Shown piece by piece: positions 9,295 to 23,412 of a stretch of 31,975 bases of DNA. Position 1 is the stretch's first letter; each line of letters starts with the position of its first letter. The notes beneath the pieces were generated by a model. That model saw only the letters and a list, made by a program, of their open reading frames with translations. It did no database searches and was not told the origin of the DNA. This stretch comes from a virus: positions 1-31,975 of IMG/VR virus record IMGVR_UViG_3300035698_002302; one strand, given 5' to 3'. The position numbers and the translations under genes were made by a program.

Positions 9295-10557
9295 TTACAC
9301 CAGATCCGCTTCGTAGCGATGGATGCTTGCCAGCTCAGGGTAGAGCTCTGCAAATCCCCACAGGATGTCGAGGCGGCAAGGCAGTTTGTCGTTGTTGATG
9401 TCGTACTGGCGAGCAATACGAATCGACATACCGTCCTGAACAGCTCGAGCGCCCCATGCGCCAAACTCGCTCACGTCAATCAGGTCAGCCGTTCCACAGA
9501 TGAATGCATCCTTGTGGAAGAACAGATCCTGCTTGAACTGGCTATCAGTTGCGCCAATCAGGGTGACCGTGAGGCCATCCGTGTTAGCGGTTCCTGACAA
9601 GACGCAGTTCTGGAACGCGTTGCCTGCACCGTAGATCAGCCCCGGCTTCACCGTCACGAGGTAGTCGTTGGCTGCGGTGGTCAGCGTCACGTCTGACTGA
9701 ACAACGAAGCGACGAAGCCGCCCGGTGTTGGTACGCAGCTCTGGATGAACTTCGTACACGCCATCAATCGTGATGATGTCGCCGGCAAGCAGGGTGTCGG
9801 CTGTTACGCCGTCAACTTGCAGATCGGTTTGACTCACCCAGGTGTTGGCAGTCGTTGACGTTCCGAGGTTAGCGCCATCGGTCACAGCAGCAGCACTGTC
9901 GAGAGTCCCGGTCGTGTGCGACGGCAGCAACGTGTTTTCGTACACGTCGAATCCGCCAGTGCGACCCATCATTCCCTCTTTGTACTGCTTCTTGATTGCG
10001 CCAGAGTCCTGGAACAGACCCTTCACGGCATCATTGAACTCAACGACAGAGTCGGGTGACAGAATCGCTGTGCGATCACTGCGCGGTCCGAGTTCGTTCG
10101 TGATGTTCTTGCCGTTCTGCTGGTAACGCTTGTAAGTCAGCAGGCCGTTGGTGGTTGCGTTGGTGTAGTTGAAGACACGCTTGTAGGCAACAGCGAGTGC
10201 ATCGCCTTCGACCTTCGCAGCGAGCTGGCTCATTGCGGGTTTCAGGAAACGATCACTGAAGTCATCAAGCTCCATCGTCAGCTCGGCTGTCGTGAAATTC
10301 ACGTCAACACCGTACTGGCTCTGGACGGTCAATGGAGTGGAACGCTCGACATGATCTTCGGCAGCGAGGGTAGCACCAGTACGAACTTCGTACTTGGACG
10401 GCATGCGAACATTCAGCGAGTAACCAATCTTCGCACCATCTTGTGCGTAGCGGTCATCGTACTGTTTGTTCACGTTACCGAGGAAGTTGCATTCCTGATG
10501 CAGAACCCGTGCGGCTTCGCGGGTAATCATTGTCGGCGTAAGGATTGAGTTAGCCAT
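9295..10557 (-). CDS. Major capsid (coat) protein, P22 gp5-like
   Basis: The 420-residue protein is close to the length of P22 coat (430) and lies directly after the scaffold gene. The N-terminal part (ILTPTMITREAARVLHQ) and the segment LRTNTGRLRRFVVQSDVTLT fit the gp5-type HK97 fold with an inserted beta-barrel domain, which I place roughly at residues 215-345 (Thr/Ala/Gly-rich, from SHTTGTLDSAAAV onward). ELTMELDDFSDRFLKPAMSQ is the helical spine region. An AGGAG ribosome binding site lies six bases before ATG 10557, as expected for the most abundant protein. A strong hairpin terminator follows. In P22, coat folding depends on GroEL/GroES; a GroES homologue is encoded upstream in this same operon. 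Confidence 0.88.
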   Translation of the reverse strand: MANSILTPTMITREAARVLHQECNFLGNVNKQYDDRYAQDGAKIGYSLNVRMPSKYEVRTGATLAAEDHVERSTPLTVQSQYGVDVNFTTAELTMELDDFSDRFLKPAMSQLAAKVEGDALAVAYKRVFNYTNATTNGLLTYKRYQQNGKNITNELGPRSDRTAILSPDSVVEFNDAVKGLFQDSGAIKKQYKEGMMGRTGGFDVYENTLLPSHTTGTLDSAAAVTDGANLGTSTTANTWVSQTDLQVDGVTADTLLAGDIITIDGVYEVHPELRTNTGRLRRFVVQSDVTLTTAANDYLVTVKPGLIYGAGNAFQNCVLSGTANTDGLTVTLIGATDSQFKQDLFFHKDAFICGTADLIDVSEFGAWGARAVQDGMSIRIARQYDINNDKLPCRLDILWGFAELYPELASIHRYEADLV

Positions 10558-10566
10558 GTGGCTCTC

Positions 10567-11460
10567 CTATCTCTTAGCAGCTAATTGTTTTTCCCTCGCT
10601 GCAAGCCACTCGGCGTCAGACATCTTGTCTGCAGTGCCAGGATCACTTGGTGAAGTCTTGAAACCGGGATCCGAGCCGTCGACCGTCTTTGCAGGCGGGG
10701 GCGCTTTGCTGGCTTTCGAGCGTTCGGCGTTAGCCTTGGCAACTTCCTTTCCGATTCGTGCTTCCAATTTAGTCATCTCCCGCATCTGAGCGGTTGGTGA
10801 CATTGCTGCTATCTTTGCGGCCTCTGGTTTGTTCTGCGCCAGATAGTCGCCAACATGCAGCCCGACTTCGCTTTCCGGGTCGATGATAAACATCGCCATC
10901 TCTTGCGAGACCATCAAGTCATCATCGTGGAGTCGCTCTTTGAATCCGGGGTTGTCTGCCTCGAAGGCATCCTCCCGTGCTTGGAGCTCGTCCTGCCGAC
11001 GCTGCGCCTCTGACTCTCTGGTCTGGTTGGCGTTGCGCTGCTCGATCCGACTTTCTGCCCGTCTTGCACCCTCGTCAATCAAATAATCGTTGAAGGCTTG
11101 TTCGTCGTAATCAAAATCACGAAGCGTCTTGATCGGCTTTGGCTTCTCATCAACCTTTTCGGGCTGGGGCTGCTGTTGCCTTTCCAGTTGTCGCTTCAGC
11201 TGCCTATTCTCAAAGGCAAGCTCTTCGATCTTCAGCTCACGTGCAGTGGGCTTCTTATCGTCAGGTTCGTTATCGGCTTTGTCCTTGCCGGACGGTGGTG
11301 AATCGTCATCCTTCTCTGCGCCTTCGCCCTGCTCCACTTCCTTCTCGTCACCCTCCGGTTCAACGAGATGTCCCATGTGCGGGTTCAAACTCAGGTCAGG
11401 CTCTGCACCTTTACTCTCGGTCTCGACGATAGGCTCGTCGGCAGCTTTCGGATCGTTCAT
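10567..11460 (-). CDS. Scaffolding protein, P22 gp8-like
   Basis: The 297-residue protein matches P22 scaffold in length (303) and in character: very charged, low in aromatic residues, with an acidic disordered N-terminus (about 1-75), a helical coiled-coil-like middle (LAFENRQLKRQLERQQQ, then ESRIEQRNANQTRESEAQ) and a short basic helical end (DAEWLAAREKQLAAKR) where P22-type scaffolds bind coat. It lies between portal and coat, the usual order. ATG 11460 overlaps the stop of the chimeric 65-codon frame as TAATG, with a GGAAGGG just upstream. Its first 74 codons are partly duplicated upstream (see the repeat entries). Confidence 0.87.
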   Translation of the reverse strand: MNDPKAADEPIVETESKGAEPDLSLNPHMGHLVEPEGDEKEVEQGEGAEKDDDSPPSGKDKADNEPDDKKPTARELKIEELAFENRQLKRQLERQQQPQPEKVDEKPKPIKTLRDFDYDEQAFNDYLIDEGARRAESRIEQRNANQTRESEAQRRQDELQAREDAFEADNPGFKERLHDDDLMVSQEMAMFIIDPESEVGLHVGDYLAQNKPEAAKIAAMSPTAQMREMTKLEARIGKEVAKANAERSKASKAPPPAKTVDGSDPGFKTSPSDPGTADKMSDAEWLAAREKQLAAKR

Positions 11461-11613
11461 TAACCCTTCCAGGCATCAGCGATTATCCCTCGCCAGTCAG
11501 GGTTGATGACCTCAATTCGTGCCGTCTGGCCGTCCTCGTAGGTCAACTCTGAATCACGTGCAGTGGGCTTCTTATCGTCAGGTTCGTTATCGGCTTTGTC
11601 CTTGCCGGACGGT
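11238..11613 (-). repeat. Direct repeat of scaffold codons 56-74 (11238-11296 and 11555-11613)
   Basis: These 59-base copies are identical and lie 317 bases apart. With the 197-base offset of the neighbouring repeat, the difference is exactly 120 bases, equal to the scaffold stretch 11297-11416 that is missing from the chimeric copy. The simplest history is one 317-base tandem duplication followed by an in-frame 120-base deletion in the upstream copy. Confidence 0.95.
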
Positions 11614-11750
11614 TCGGTCTCGACGATAGGCTCGTCGGCAGCTTTCGGATCGTTCATTAACCCTCCCAGGCATCAGCGATTATCCCTCGCCGTCAGGGTT
11701 GATGACCTCAATTCGTGCCGTCTGGCCGTCCTCGTAGGTCAACTCTGAAT
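11417..11750 (-). repeat. Direct repeat of portal end plus scaffold start (11417-11554 and 11614-11750)
   Basis: The two copies (138 and 137 bases, offset 197) are identical except for one substitution (cccttcc against ccctccc) and one extra base in the 11417 copy (gccagtcag against gccgtcag). The extra base shifts the frame so the duplicated portal end reads WRGIIADAWKG instead of GEG-stop. Near-identity points to a recent event. Confidence 0.95.
11460..11657 (-). pseudogene. 65-codon chimeric frame made of scaffold and portal fragments
   Basis: This frame reads MNDPKAADEPIVETE, identical to scaffold residues 1-15, then PSGKDKADNEPDDKKPTAR, identical to scaffold 56-74, then one Asp and SELTYEDGQTARIEVINPD, identical to the portal C-terminus, then WRGIIADAWKG from shifted intergenic sequence. 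It arose by duplication of the portal end and scaffold start with loss of scaffold codons 16-55. All joins are in frame and it keeps a GGGAGG ribosome binding site, so a small peptide could still be made. It may instead be a debris product or an assembly artefact. Confidence 0.85.
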
Positions 11751-13986
11751 AAAGCTTACCATTCTCTCTGACTGGTTTACTACTGATTGGCACACGTCCT
11801 GCCTTGGTCTGCAGCTCGCCAAAGATCTTATTCGACTCCTGCATGAAGCTCGCCAGGGTGTCATCGATCGAACGCACGGCAGTGGCAACAGCGACGACAG
11901 CCTCATCCGGCTCGCCTCCATTGGCCTGCAGTTCCGATGACTTCTGATCCAGATTCGCGACCTCTTTGGCGATGTGTGCGTCGAACTCTGCCTTCACCCT
12001 GCGCAGTCGCTCGATGCGGATCTCGACATCCTTTCGGTTCTGCTCGACCTTGTGCGACTCGGCTTCGGCGTCGGACTTGGTCTGCTCGAGTTCCTTCTCG
12101 GCTTCCATCACCAGTTGGCCACGCTCCTCGACTGCCTGCATGGCCTGCTCGGCTTGCAACATCATCTGCTGCACTTCCGGCGGAACCTCTTTGCCTTCCT
12201 GCAGCTTCTGTTGGATCTGTGGCGGCAACAGTGTCTGCAGTCGCTCCGCAATCTCGTCGGCGTACGGCAGATCCATTGACTTCATGACCAGATCACCAGC
12301 CACGCCCATGATCTCAGGGAACTGCTGTGCCAGCTGGCCATACGTCTCTGCTGCCTCTTGGCGTAGCGTCGAGAAGCTTGGGCCACTGGTTACCGTGACA
12401 TCGTACTTGCCCTCGGACAGGTCGTTGACCTTGACCATCTTCTTGGTCTTTGGATCAATCACCACCTGGTTGACCTTCTTGTAGTCCTCGGCTCCATCAC
12501 TGCCAAGCACTCGCAGCTCACGCTCCGTGTCGTAGATCTCAGGGATCAGGTCGAGGATGATCTCGTAACTGCGCTGGATGCCCTTCGACATGTTGTCCTG
12601 AAAGTTGAACGTCGCGATCTCGCCTTGGTTCTGACGCGCCATGATTGCCCGACCGCTGGTCTCGTTGGACTGAGCTCCAAAGCTTGCATCGAAGATCCCG
12701 GTCACCGACTTGATCTCGTCGGATGCAATCTGCGTCTCTTGGATCAGCGCGACAGGTACATCAGCGCCACCCATCCGCGTCGGAGGCCCAGGCGCTTTGC
12801 TGTCTGCTTCGTACAGCATGAACGGGTAGTTCTTCTTGTGCGCCTGCTTCCACTGGTTGAGATGACCTTCGGACTGTTTGCTCGTTGCCCAGAAATGCGA
12901 CTTCGGCGCTTGAGCGATGGTCTCGCTGATAGCGGTTCGCGCAATGTTGTAGCTGCGCTGTGCATCCTTGGCAAAGCGAGGCAAGCCCCACCAGTACGAC
13001 CTGCCGTCAATCCATGCATGCTCGCCGAAGACCATCACGAACGGGAACATAGACCCAGCCCATTCTCCCTGCTCCAGAATCCGGTCACCACTGGCAATGC
13101 ACCATTGGATCTTCTCGGAGATGATCTCTCGTCGGCGCAGGATCTGCTGCGGGTCGATGCCACCAGCCTCGTCGGTGGTCGAGTCGACAATCTTCTTGGT
13201 GATCTCGCCCTCGGGATCTTCCGGGTCGGGCATGAACGCCACCTCCCAGATCTCCTTCTTCTCGGGAACCTTGTACCAGTACTCGCAGACCCGAGTCGTG
13301 GATTCGGTATTCCATTCCTCGTCATCGTCGAACTGGTGGTCGCCAGCTGTGAACTCGCTGACCGTGGCATCTGGCCACCGCTTCTCGAAGTCCTTGTTCG
13401 GGATCTTCTCGGTAATCGCCCAGTCCCTGGCATCACGCTTCAGGAAATCTCTGGCCTGAGGATCGCAGTAAACAGTGAACGGATTGCGGAATGGCTCGAG
13501 GACGATGTCCTGATTGAATGCATCGTCGCCAATGTACTTGGTGTTGATGCGCCATGCACACATCCCGGCTGCTGTCTGGTACTCGGCAGCGTAGTCGATG
13601 ATTGAGTCGCCATCGGACTGCTGCCAGATGTTGCGGATCAGGCCTTCATCGATGTTGGCAATCTCAGTGTCGCCACCCTCGACCGCCCGCACCTTAGCGC
13701 CAGGACGATTGCTGCGCATGTCGTTGATGATGCGCTTGCAGCTGATGCGAAGCTTGTTGAACTCATAGCATGGCCTGTTGCCACGCTCCTGCTTCATGTT
13801 GTGTTCCCACTGCTCGCCTGGGACGTTGGTGAACTTCAGGTCTTCCATCGCTGCAACGCGATTCTCGTGATCAGCCTCCGCCATCACTTTGTAGCGCTCC
13901 CGCATTTTCACGAGCAAGTCGGCGTTGTCCTTCTTGCGCATGTCGGGCATGCCGTTTTTCGTATCTTTAGGCTGCGTAGGTTCCAC
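11680..13986 (-). CDS. Portal protein, P22 gp1-like
   Basis: The 768-residue protein fits the P22-type portal family (P22 gp1 is 725). Typical parts are the N-terminal KMRERYKVMAEADHENR helix, EQWEHNMKQERGNRPCYEFN with the following RISCKRIINDMRSNRPGAKV, then FMVFGEHAWIDGRSYWWGLP and ARTAISETIAQAPKSHFW, and SFGAQSNETSGRAIMARQNQ in the wing/crown region. Residues about 600-710 form a long charged coiled coil (AEQAMQAVEERGQLVMEAEK onward) comparable to the helical barrel of P22 portal. The dodecameric portal is the DNA channel, packaging motor dock and nucleation point for assembly. Start ATG 13986 overlaps the end of the terminase gene by 20 bases. Its final 20 codons are duplicated just downstream. 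Confidence 0.9.
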   Translation of the reverse strand: MEPTQPKDTKNGMPDMRKKDNADLLVKMRERYKVMAEADHENRVAAMEDLKFTNVPGEQWEHNMKQERGNRPCYEFNKLRISCKRIINDMRSNRPGAKVRAVEGGDTEIANIDEGLIRNIWQQSDGDSIIDYAAEYQTAAGMCAWRINTKYIGDDAFNQDIVLEPFRNPFTVYCDPQARDFLKRDARDWAITEKIPNKDFEKRWPDATVSEFTAGDHQFDDDEEWNTESTTRVCEYWYKVPEKKEIWEVAFMPDPEDPEGEITKKIVDSTTDEAGGIDPQQILRRREIISEKIQWCIASGDRILEQGEWAGSMFPFVMVFGEHAWIDGRSYWWGLPRFAKDAQRSYNIARTAISETIAQAPKSHFWATSKQSEGHLNQWKQAHKKNYPFMLYEADSKAPGPPTRMGGADVPVALIQETQIASDEIKSVTGIFDASFGAQSNETSGRAIMARQNQGEIATFNFQDNMSKGIQRSYEIILDLIPEIYDTERELRVLGSDGAEDYKKVNQVVIDPKTKKMVKVNDLSEGKYDVTVTSGPSFSTLRQEAAETYGQLAQQFPEIMGVAGDLVMKSMDLPYADEIAERLQTLLPPQIQQKLQEGKEVPPEVQQMMLQAEQAMQAVEERGQLVMEAEKELEQTKSDAEAESHKVEQNRKDVEIRIERLRRVKAEFDAHIAKEVANLDQKSSELQANGGEPDEAVVAVATAVRSIDDTLASFMQESNKIFGELQTKAGRVPISSKPVRENGKLYSELTYEDGQTARIEVINPDGEG

Positions 13987-15265
13987 TGTCCATCCCCTCG
14001 TATGGGTTCTTTGGCTTTCGGTCGTTGTTCGTCAGCTCGTCTGCAACGACGGCAGTGTAGCACCACGCCTCTGCACCATGCGAAAAGTCATCCTTGTCTG
14101 GCGATGAGCGTTTGTCCGGGTTGGTGTTGCTGACCTTGTACTTGAATCGCTTCAGGCAGCGCATCAGATCGTCGCCGCCCATGTCCGGGTGGTCGTTGAT
14201 GTAGGCATTGCCAAACATGCGCCGACCCTTCTCGATGTAGTTCTCGACTCCCTCCTGTGGGATCTCGTCGGTCTCCCATCCAAGGTCTTCCATGATCTTG
14301 TAGTGGCTCTGTCCTGTCTTGGGATCTCGGTGCGCGGCGTCATGCGGCATCCAGATCTTTCCCCAGTTCCAATCAGGGTGCTTGGTCTTCAGCTCGTTGG
14401 TGATCTTGTCGTAGGTGCTGTTGCGCCACTCGTAGTAGCCAATGACCTGGACGGTCGAGCCGAAGCGCTGCGCCAGTACCATCGTCATCACGCCATAGCC
14501 CAAGTCCATGATGCCGTGGACACGTCCCATCGGGTCATAGTCCATTGCCCGGAAGCGTCGGTCGGTCTGAAACTTCGAGACCTCATTGGCGAAGATAGCG
14601 CCCTCGACCGCCGGCAGACAGTAGCCAAGCCAGACGTGACGATAGACGTGCTTGTCCGGCGCCAGGTCACGGTCGTAGTCATCGATGCGTTCCTGCTCAA
14701 GCTCGGTGTCATCGAACCACGGGTTATCCATGTAATCCATCTTGATGACGTGGCTGTCGCTGGCAGGCTTGGCGATGAATCTTTCATAGGCCGGATCATC
14801 GTCCAGTTCCGGGTTCATGCTGATGTAGAAGCGACTGCCCTTCTTTCGAATGGTCGGCACGAGGATGCGTAGCGAGCGATTGCTCAGGACGTGGGCTTCC
14901 TCAAGCCAGACATCGTCAATGCCCTCGAGCGACTTCAGGCTATCGATCGACTCGTTGCTCAGACCACGGAAGATGAAGCGACTGCCGTTCATCCCGTCGA
15001 TGCCGCCCTTGTTGGTCTTGAAGAATCCACTGAGACCCATTCGGCGCTGGGTGTCCATGAGCAGCTGCATCACCGACTCGTCGAGCGACTTCTGGATCTC
15101 ACGACCGCATAACACCCGGCGTGGCTCCAAATAGGCATTCAGCGACAGGATCTCAGCAAACGTCCAGCTCTTCGCCGATCCGCGACCACCGTACAACGTG
15201 TTGTAGCGCCGTGGATCCTCGTAGACGGGCAGCGTCTTCTCTGGGATCTCGAAGCGAACCTTCAT
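13967..15265 (-). CDS. terL: Terminase large subunit (Terminase_3 / PBSX-like ATPase-nuclease)
   Basis: The 432-residue protein has Walker A GGRGSAKS (26-33), Walker B with catalytic acid DDVWLEEA (117-124), a coupling motif near ISMNPE (148-153), and an RNase H-like nuclease domain with acidic residues in GIMDLGYG (Asp254), MPHDAAHRD (Asp309) and DKDDFSHGAEA (Asp392/393). It pumps DNA through the portal and makes the packaging cut. ATG 15265 overlaps the TerS stop as ATGA, and its end overlaps the portal start, so the packaging genes are tightly coupled. It is complete and shows no broken motif. Confidence 0.93.
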   Translation of the reverse strand: MKVRFEIPEKTLPVYEDPRRYNTLYGGRGSAKSWTFAEILSLNAYLEPRRVLCGREIQKSLDESVMQLLMDTQRRMGLSGFFKTNKGGIDGMNGSRFIFRGLSNESIDSLKSLEGIDDVWLEEAHVLSNRSLRILVPTIRKKGSRFYISMNPELDDDPAYERFIAKPASDSHVIKMDYMDNPWFDDTELEQERIDDYDRDLAPDKHVYRHVWLGYCLPAVEGAIFANEVSKFQTDRRFRAMDYDPMGRVHGIMDLGYGVMTMVLAQRFGSTVQVIGYYEWRNSTYDKITNELKTKHPDWNWGKIWMPHDAAHRDPKTGQSHYKIMEDLGWETDEIPQEGVENYIEKGRRMFGNAYINDHPDMGGDDLMRCLKRFKYKVSNTNPDKRSSPDKDDFSHGAEAWCYTAVVADELTNNDRKPKNPYEGMDSGTYAA

Positions 15266-22746: not shown

Positions 22747-23412
22747 ATGGGATTAGTAGCGAAAGACAGTGGCGGTGGCGACTTTGAGCCATTACCCGCA
22801 GGAACGTATGCAGCGCGATGTGTGAGCGTTGTCGACATCGGTATTCAACAGACAGCATTCGGCGGCAAGGAGAAGGTCTATCTCGGCTTTGAAGTGCCTG
22901 AAGAGCGCGTCAAGTGGAAGGACAAGGACGGCAAGGAACTTGAAGGTCCAGCGTTCATTGGGAGCCGCTACACGCTCTCGATCAATCCGAAGTCCATTCT
23001 CGGTCAGCACCTGACCTCATGGCGCGGCAAGCCCTTCACGGAAGAGGAGCGAGCGGGATTCGACCTGTTCACGATCTTGGGAGCGCCGTGCATGATCAGC
23101 GTGATTCACGCCGAGAAGAACAACAAGACGTACGCCAACATCGAGGGCATCATGCGCCTTCCCAAGGGTATGACAGCGCCACCGGCAGAGACCGACCTGA
23201 TTGCGTACACGCCCAACGACAACGACAAGATCCAGAACTTCGAGAAGCTGCCTGAGTGGCTGCAGAAGCTCTGCAAGGAAGGTCACGGCAAGGCTGCTGA
23301 CTATCCGACGTCACAGTCGCAACAGTCGCCGAATCCAGAATCACAGTCGCAAAACCCAGCTGATTATTTCGAAAACCCAGCTGATTATTTCGACGATGAC
23401 ATCCCATTCTGA
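22747..23412 (+). CDS. Single-stranded DNA-binding-like protein
   Basis: The 221-residue protein starts MGLVAKDSGGGDFEPLPAGT, after a GAGGAG ribosome binding site. The N-terminal 140 residues look like a beta barrel (YAARCVSVVDIGIQQTAF, then KEKVYLGFEVPEERVKWKDK and CMISVIHAEKNNKTYANIEG). It continues to a disordered Gln/Ser/Pro/Asn linker (190-215) and ends DDDIPF, the short acidic tip that recruits partner proteins in bacterial and phage SSBs. The family is probably one of the small phage SSB groups rather than classical Ssb. It lies beside a 3'-5' exonuclease, consistent with replication or recombination. Confidence 0.72.
   Translation: MGLVAKDSGGGDFEPLPAGTYAARCVSVVDIGIQQTAFGGKEKVYLGFEVPEERVKWKDKDGKELEGPAFIGSRYTLSINPKSILGQHLTSWRGKPFTEEERAGFDLFTILGAPCMISVIHAEKNNKTYANIEGIMRLPKGMTAPPAETDLIAYTPNDNDKIQNFEKLPEWLQKLCKEGHGKAADYPTSQSQQSPNPESQSQNPADYFENPADYFDDDIPF
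23353..23394 (+). repeat. Tandem 21-bp repeat in the SSB-like tail
   Basis: Two consecutive 21-base units, differing only in the last base, encode NPADYFE and NPADYFD immediately before the acidic tip. A looser Ser-Gln repeat (SQSQQSPNPESQSQ) lies just upstream. Such repeats change linker length by slippage. Confidence 0.9.

Follow-up and report, generated by a model that had tools for sequence, protein, structure and literature searches.

The window analysed here, which is the whole record of 31,975 bases, comes from a P22-like environmental phage and carries on its minus strand a P22-type head module with terminase, portal, scaffold, and coat genes. Between the portal and scaffold genes lies a short open reading frame, embedded in a partial duplicate of the sequence that spans the portal-scaffold boundary. 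In gene orientation, the features are as follows.

13967-15265, minus strand: terminase gene
11680-13986, minus strand: portal gene of the P22 type, 768 amino acids, intact, with its tail inside the portal-proximal repeat copy (Pfam P22_portal PF16510, E 7.6e-161; PHROG 156)
11554-11750, minus strand: repeat copy B, portal-proximal, 197 nt, holding the portal end and scaffold codons 1-15 and 56-74, and lacking 120 nt
11460-11657, minus strand: chimeric 65-codon open reading frame made of scaffold codons 1-15, scaffold codons 56-74, the portal tail, and a frameshifted end (no Pfam or PHROG match)
11554, minus strand: duplication breakpoint, at which the joined ends have 1 base in common
11237-11554, minus strand: repeat copy A, scaffold-proximal, about 317 nt, holding the portal end and the intact scaffold start
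11495, minus strand: site of one additional base in copy A, whose presence puts the duplicated portal end into another frame
11297-11416, minus strand: 120-base segment equal to scaffold codons 16-55, found in copy A but not in copy B, and kept in the relatives L016 and L025
10567-11460, minus strand: scaffold gene, 297 amino acids, intact (PHROG 8865, head scaffolding protein, E 4.4e-25)
9295-10557, minus strand: major coat protein gene of the P22 type, downstream of the scaffold gene (Pfam P22_CoatProtein PF11651, E 2.8e-37)

An earlier note on this DNA had described the 65-codon frame as a chimera of two scaffold pieces and the portal C-terminus, and this composition was confirmed. The frame reads through scaffold codons 1-15 and 56-74 into the portal tail SELTYEDGQTARIEVINPD and then into the frameshifted end WRGIIADAWKG. 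As the note had also stated, it is preceded by a ribosome-binding site, and its stop codon overlaps the scaffold start as TAATG. The portal proper, whose end lies in copy B, terminates with NPDGEG 22 bases ahead of the chimera ATG. The duplicated coding parts show no decay. A search of the chimeric peptide against Pfam and PHROGs matched no family, and the peptide, an assembly of low-complexity pieces, is likely disordered. No RNA family was found in the window with Rfam.

Three direct-repeat blocks, of 60 nt at an offset of 317, 78 nt at an offset of 197, and 59 nt at an offset of 196, explain the entire 197-nt insert. The previously reported offsets of 317 and 197 were reproduced, and their difference of 120 corresponds to a clean gap at 11297-11416 inside the scaffold gene. 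The two small differences between the copies could also be located: the 78-nt block contains one mismatch (11468 T / 11665 C), and the offset changes from 197 to 196 beyond position 11495, where the scaffold-proximal copy carries one additional base, which is the frameshift in the duplicated portal end. Three differences therefore separate copies A and B: a substitution, a single-base indel, and the clean 120-base gap. Their longest perfect match is 60 nt. No other direct repeat in the 32-kb window reaches 30 nt, and thus this one is not a product of chance. The duplication joint (11554) has a microhomology of 1 base, and by inspection of the sequence the deletion joint (11613/11614) has 0 bases. 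Elsewhere in the window, a 21-base tandem repeat is present at 23351-23393 as two perfect copies.

These joints also bear on whether the arrangement could be an assembly or library artefact, in which strains with and without the 120-base deletion were joined by a chimeric read, or in which one copy contains an error. The source is a metagenomic virus record, and the differences between the copies could be strain differences. Furthermore, an exact scan of viral contigs for both novel joints gave no match, although near-identical records may lie outside the scanned set. However, an overlap assembler would need a real read across a joint of 1 base, and copies with a longest exact match of 60 nt would be resolved by assemblers using longer words or by 150-base reads; taken together, these two features mean that some read must have crossed the joint. 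Assemblers tend to collapse tandem copies, not to invent them. We consider an artefact unlikely.

The earlier note had proposed a check for a single-copy junction in related phages. We collected 77 portal-scaffold loci in which both genes were readable, representing 71 distinct records, and the 72 junctions with a gap of less than 1 kb were tested for exact repeats of at least 18 nt within 600 bases on each side of the boundary. A duplication across the boundary was found in 0 of these 72 junctions, and no second copy that would indicate conservation of the frame in an independent genome was present among them. The closest relatives, L025 (portal 75% and scaffold 58% identical) and L016 (portal 68% and scaffold 59% identical), both have a single-copy junction, as does one distant relative recovered from a Woeseia MAG by a scan of genome contigs. 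The duplication is private to the present record among those examined. The scaffolds of L016 and L025 keep the segment around SLNPHMG, which is absent from the chimera, and the deletion is therefore specific to the extra copy. Across the 77 loci, the interval from portal to scaffold ranged from -8 to 3075 bases, which implies that the boundary tolerates inserted DNA.

Some variation of other kinds was also seen at these loci. L013 has one short repeat, located within the portal end. In L005, L007, L008, L080, and L098, the portal and scaffold genes are 1-3 kb apart with other sequence between them, so that adjacency of the two genes is not fixed among the relatives. L020 (1704-1923) and L021 (4869-4905) have portals that are about 96% identical, but the stretch from portal to scaffold is about 180 bases longer in L020. 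By eye, the additional bases are unrelated to the portal or scaffold sequence, and they have no Rfam match. The portal-scaffold boundary is a spot of varying content.

The portal tails of the relatives, which are poorly conserved in both length and sequence, provided a clue to the origin of the single-base difference. The tails of L016 (NPDVED...), L019 (PDSEG), and L018 (PDSEE) resemble the NPDGEG end of the portal in copy B. Because these three tails resemble PDGEG or PDSEG, the NPDGEG frame is probably the older one, and it is more likely that a single-base insertion occurred in the copy belonging to the chimera (copy A), a direction that is suggested by the sequence comparison but is not firm. 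The portal of L025 ends with NP and, being shorter and different, is uninformative on the direction of the indel. The direction of the lone substitution is ambiguous, since two alignments of L016 are possible. With the additional base in copy A, the same DNA falls into another frame, that of WRGIIADAWKG, and consequently the chimera extends to the scaffold start.

We propose, at a probability of about 0.7, that a recent illegitimate tandem duplication of about 317 bases, with 1-base microhomology, occurred across the portal-scaffold boundary together with an in-frame deletion that removed 120 bases of the upstream copy, leaving both genes intact and the fusion frame between them as a by-product. 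The same pair of events had been put forward in the earlier note, and the junction geometry and the single-copy state of L016 and L025 support it; the two may have occurred in either order or as one complex event. The 1-base and 0-base joints fit illegitimate joining or template switching better than recombination between repeats. A tandem duplication across the boundary would yield a full portal end and a full scaffold start, and this restoration of one whole copy of each gene accounts for the intact genes and for the tolerance of the event, with no need for selection. The fusion frame would probably be translated at some level through the ribosome-binding site inherited from the scaffold gene; most likely it serves no selected function, and recombination between the repeats would tend to eliminate it.

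We then asked how surprising an open chimera is by simulating random duplications and deletions on L016 and L025. The simulated chimera stayed open across 30 bases or more of the portal part in 40% (L016) and 48% (L025) of cases, and in 22% and 19%, respectively, its end lay no more than about 4 bases from the scaffold start. At such frequencies, an open and coupled chimera is not strong evidence of function. A deletion in frame and a fusion to the portal tail in frame would coincide in about 1 in 9 cases by chance if the two are independent. This double coincidence and the lack of decay are mildly suggestive of function, but a very recent event would account for both equally well.

At the chimera start, Shine-Dalgarno pairing with the 16S tail is predicted at -10.7 kcal/mol, versus -6.0 kcal/mol at the scaffold start. 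The chimera can probably be translated, and through coupling it might have a small effect on scaffold output. The duplication could accordingly retune the scaffold:portal ratio, with the chimera serving as an upstream frame with a stronger predicted ribosome-binding site and the scaffold being translated partly by termination-reinitiation at TAATG. The difference in predicted pairing agrees with this, and so does the extra base in copy A, which brings the chimera frame to the TAATG overlap. However, the scaffold site of L025 is predicted to be equally weak (-6.4 kcal/mol; -9.8 in L016), yet L025 has no chimera. The range of gaps in the relatives indicates that coupling is not conserved, and two changes are too few for an argument from selection. 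Retuning of this kind is quite improbable, and it is more doubtful still that the frame is a newborn fusion gene, caught soon after its birth, that controls scaffold translation as a coupled upstream frame and thereby changes the scaffold:portal ratio.

The earlier note had further suggested that the chimeric peptide might act as a decoy or regulator of scaffold assembly. It would do so from an open frame with a ribosome-binding site, and it carries N-terminal scaffold residues and the portal tail. In the P22 procapsid, however, the scaffold contacts portal and coat through its base, C-loop, and hook, and residues 1-57 form the N-loop (PMC12005531). The chimera has only residues 1-15 and 56-74 of this family's scaffold and roughly the last 18 residues of the portal. 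With P22 numbering mapped onto this scaffold by position only, it would extend no further than the first residues of the base and would be without these contact regions. The portal part that it carries is the variable tail described above. The suggestion thus found no support, since no tested relative has the chimera, open frames are common in simulation, and the P22 contact regions are missing; we regard it as the least probable of the readings. What is seen here is most likely a routine copying error and not a new regulator.

The locus provides a clean snapshot of a tandem duplication over two adjacent phage genes that leaves both whole and adds a translated-looking fusion frame. Its importance would rise only with proof that the frame is retained or that it alters scaffold output. 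For annotators, it is a warning that such a fusion frame is not evidence of a gene. Literature searches turned up no comparable phage cases.

The locus resembles known P22-type head modules in its portal-scaffold-coat order, in its P22_portal and P22_CoatProtein matches, and in its head scaffolding PHROG; it differs in having a 197-base extra partial duplicate between portal and scaffold, which occurs in no relative tested. It also resembles short illegitimate tandem duplications that create fusion frames, with head-to-tail near-identical copies, near-zero microhomology, intact parent genes, a fusion frame at the novel joint, and a single-copy ancestral state in the relatives (L016, L025, and the other tested junctions). 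In contrast to those cases, one copy here carries an in-frame deletion of 120 bases, and two phage head genes are spanned.
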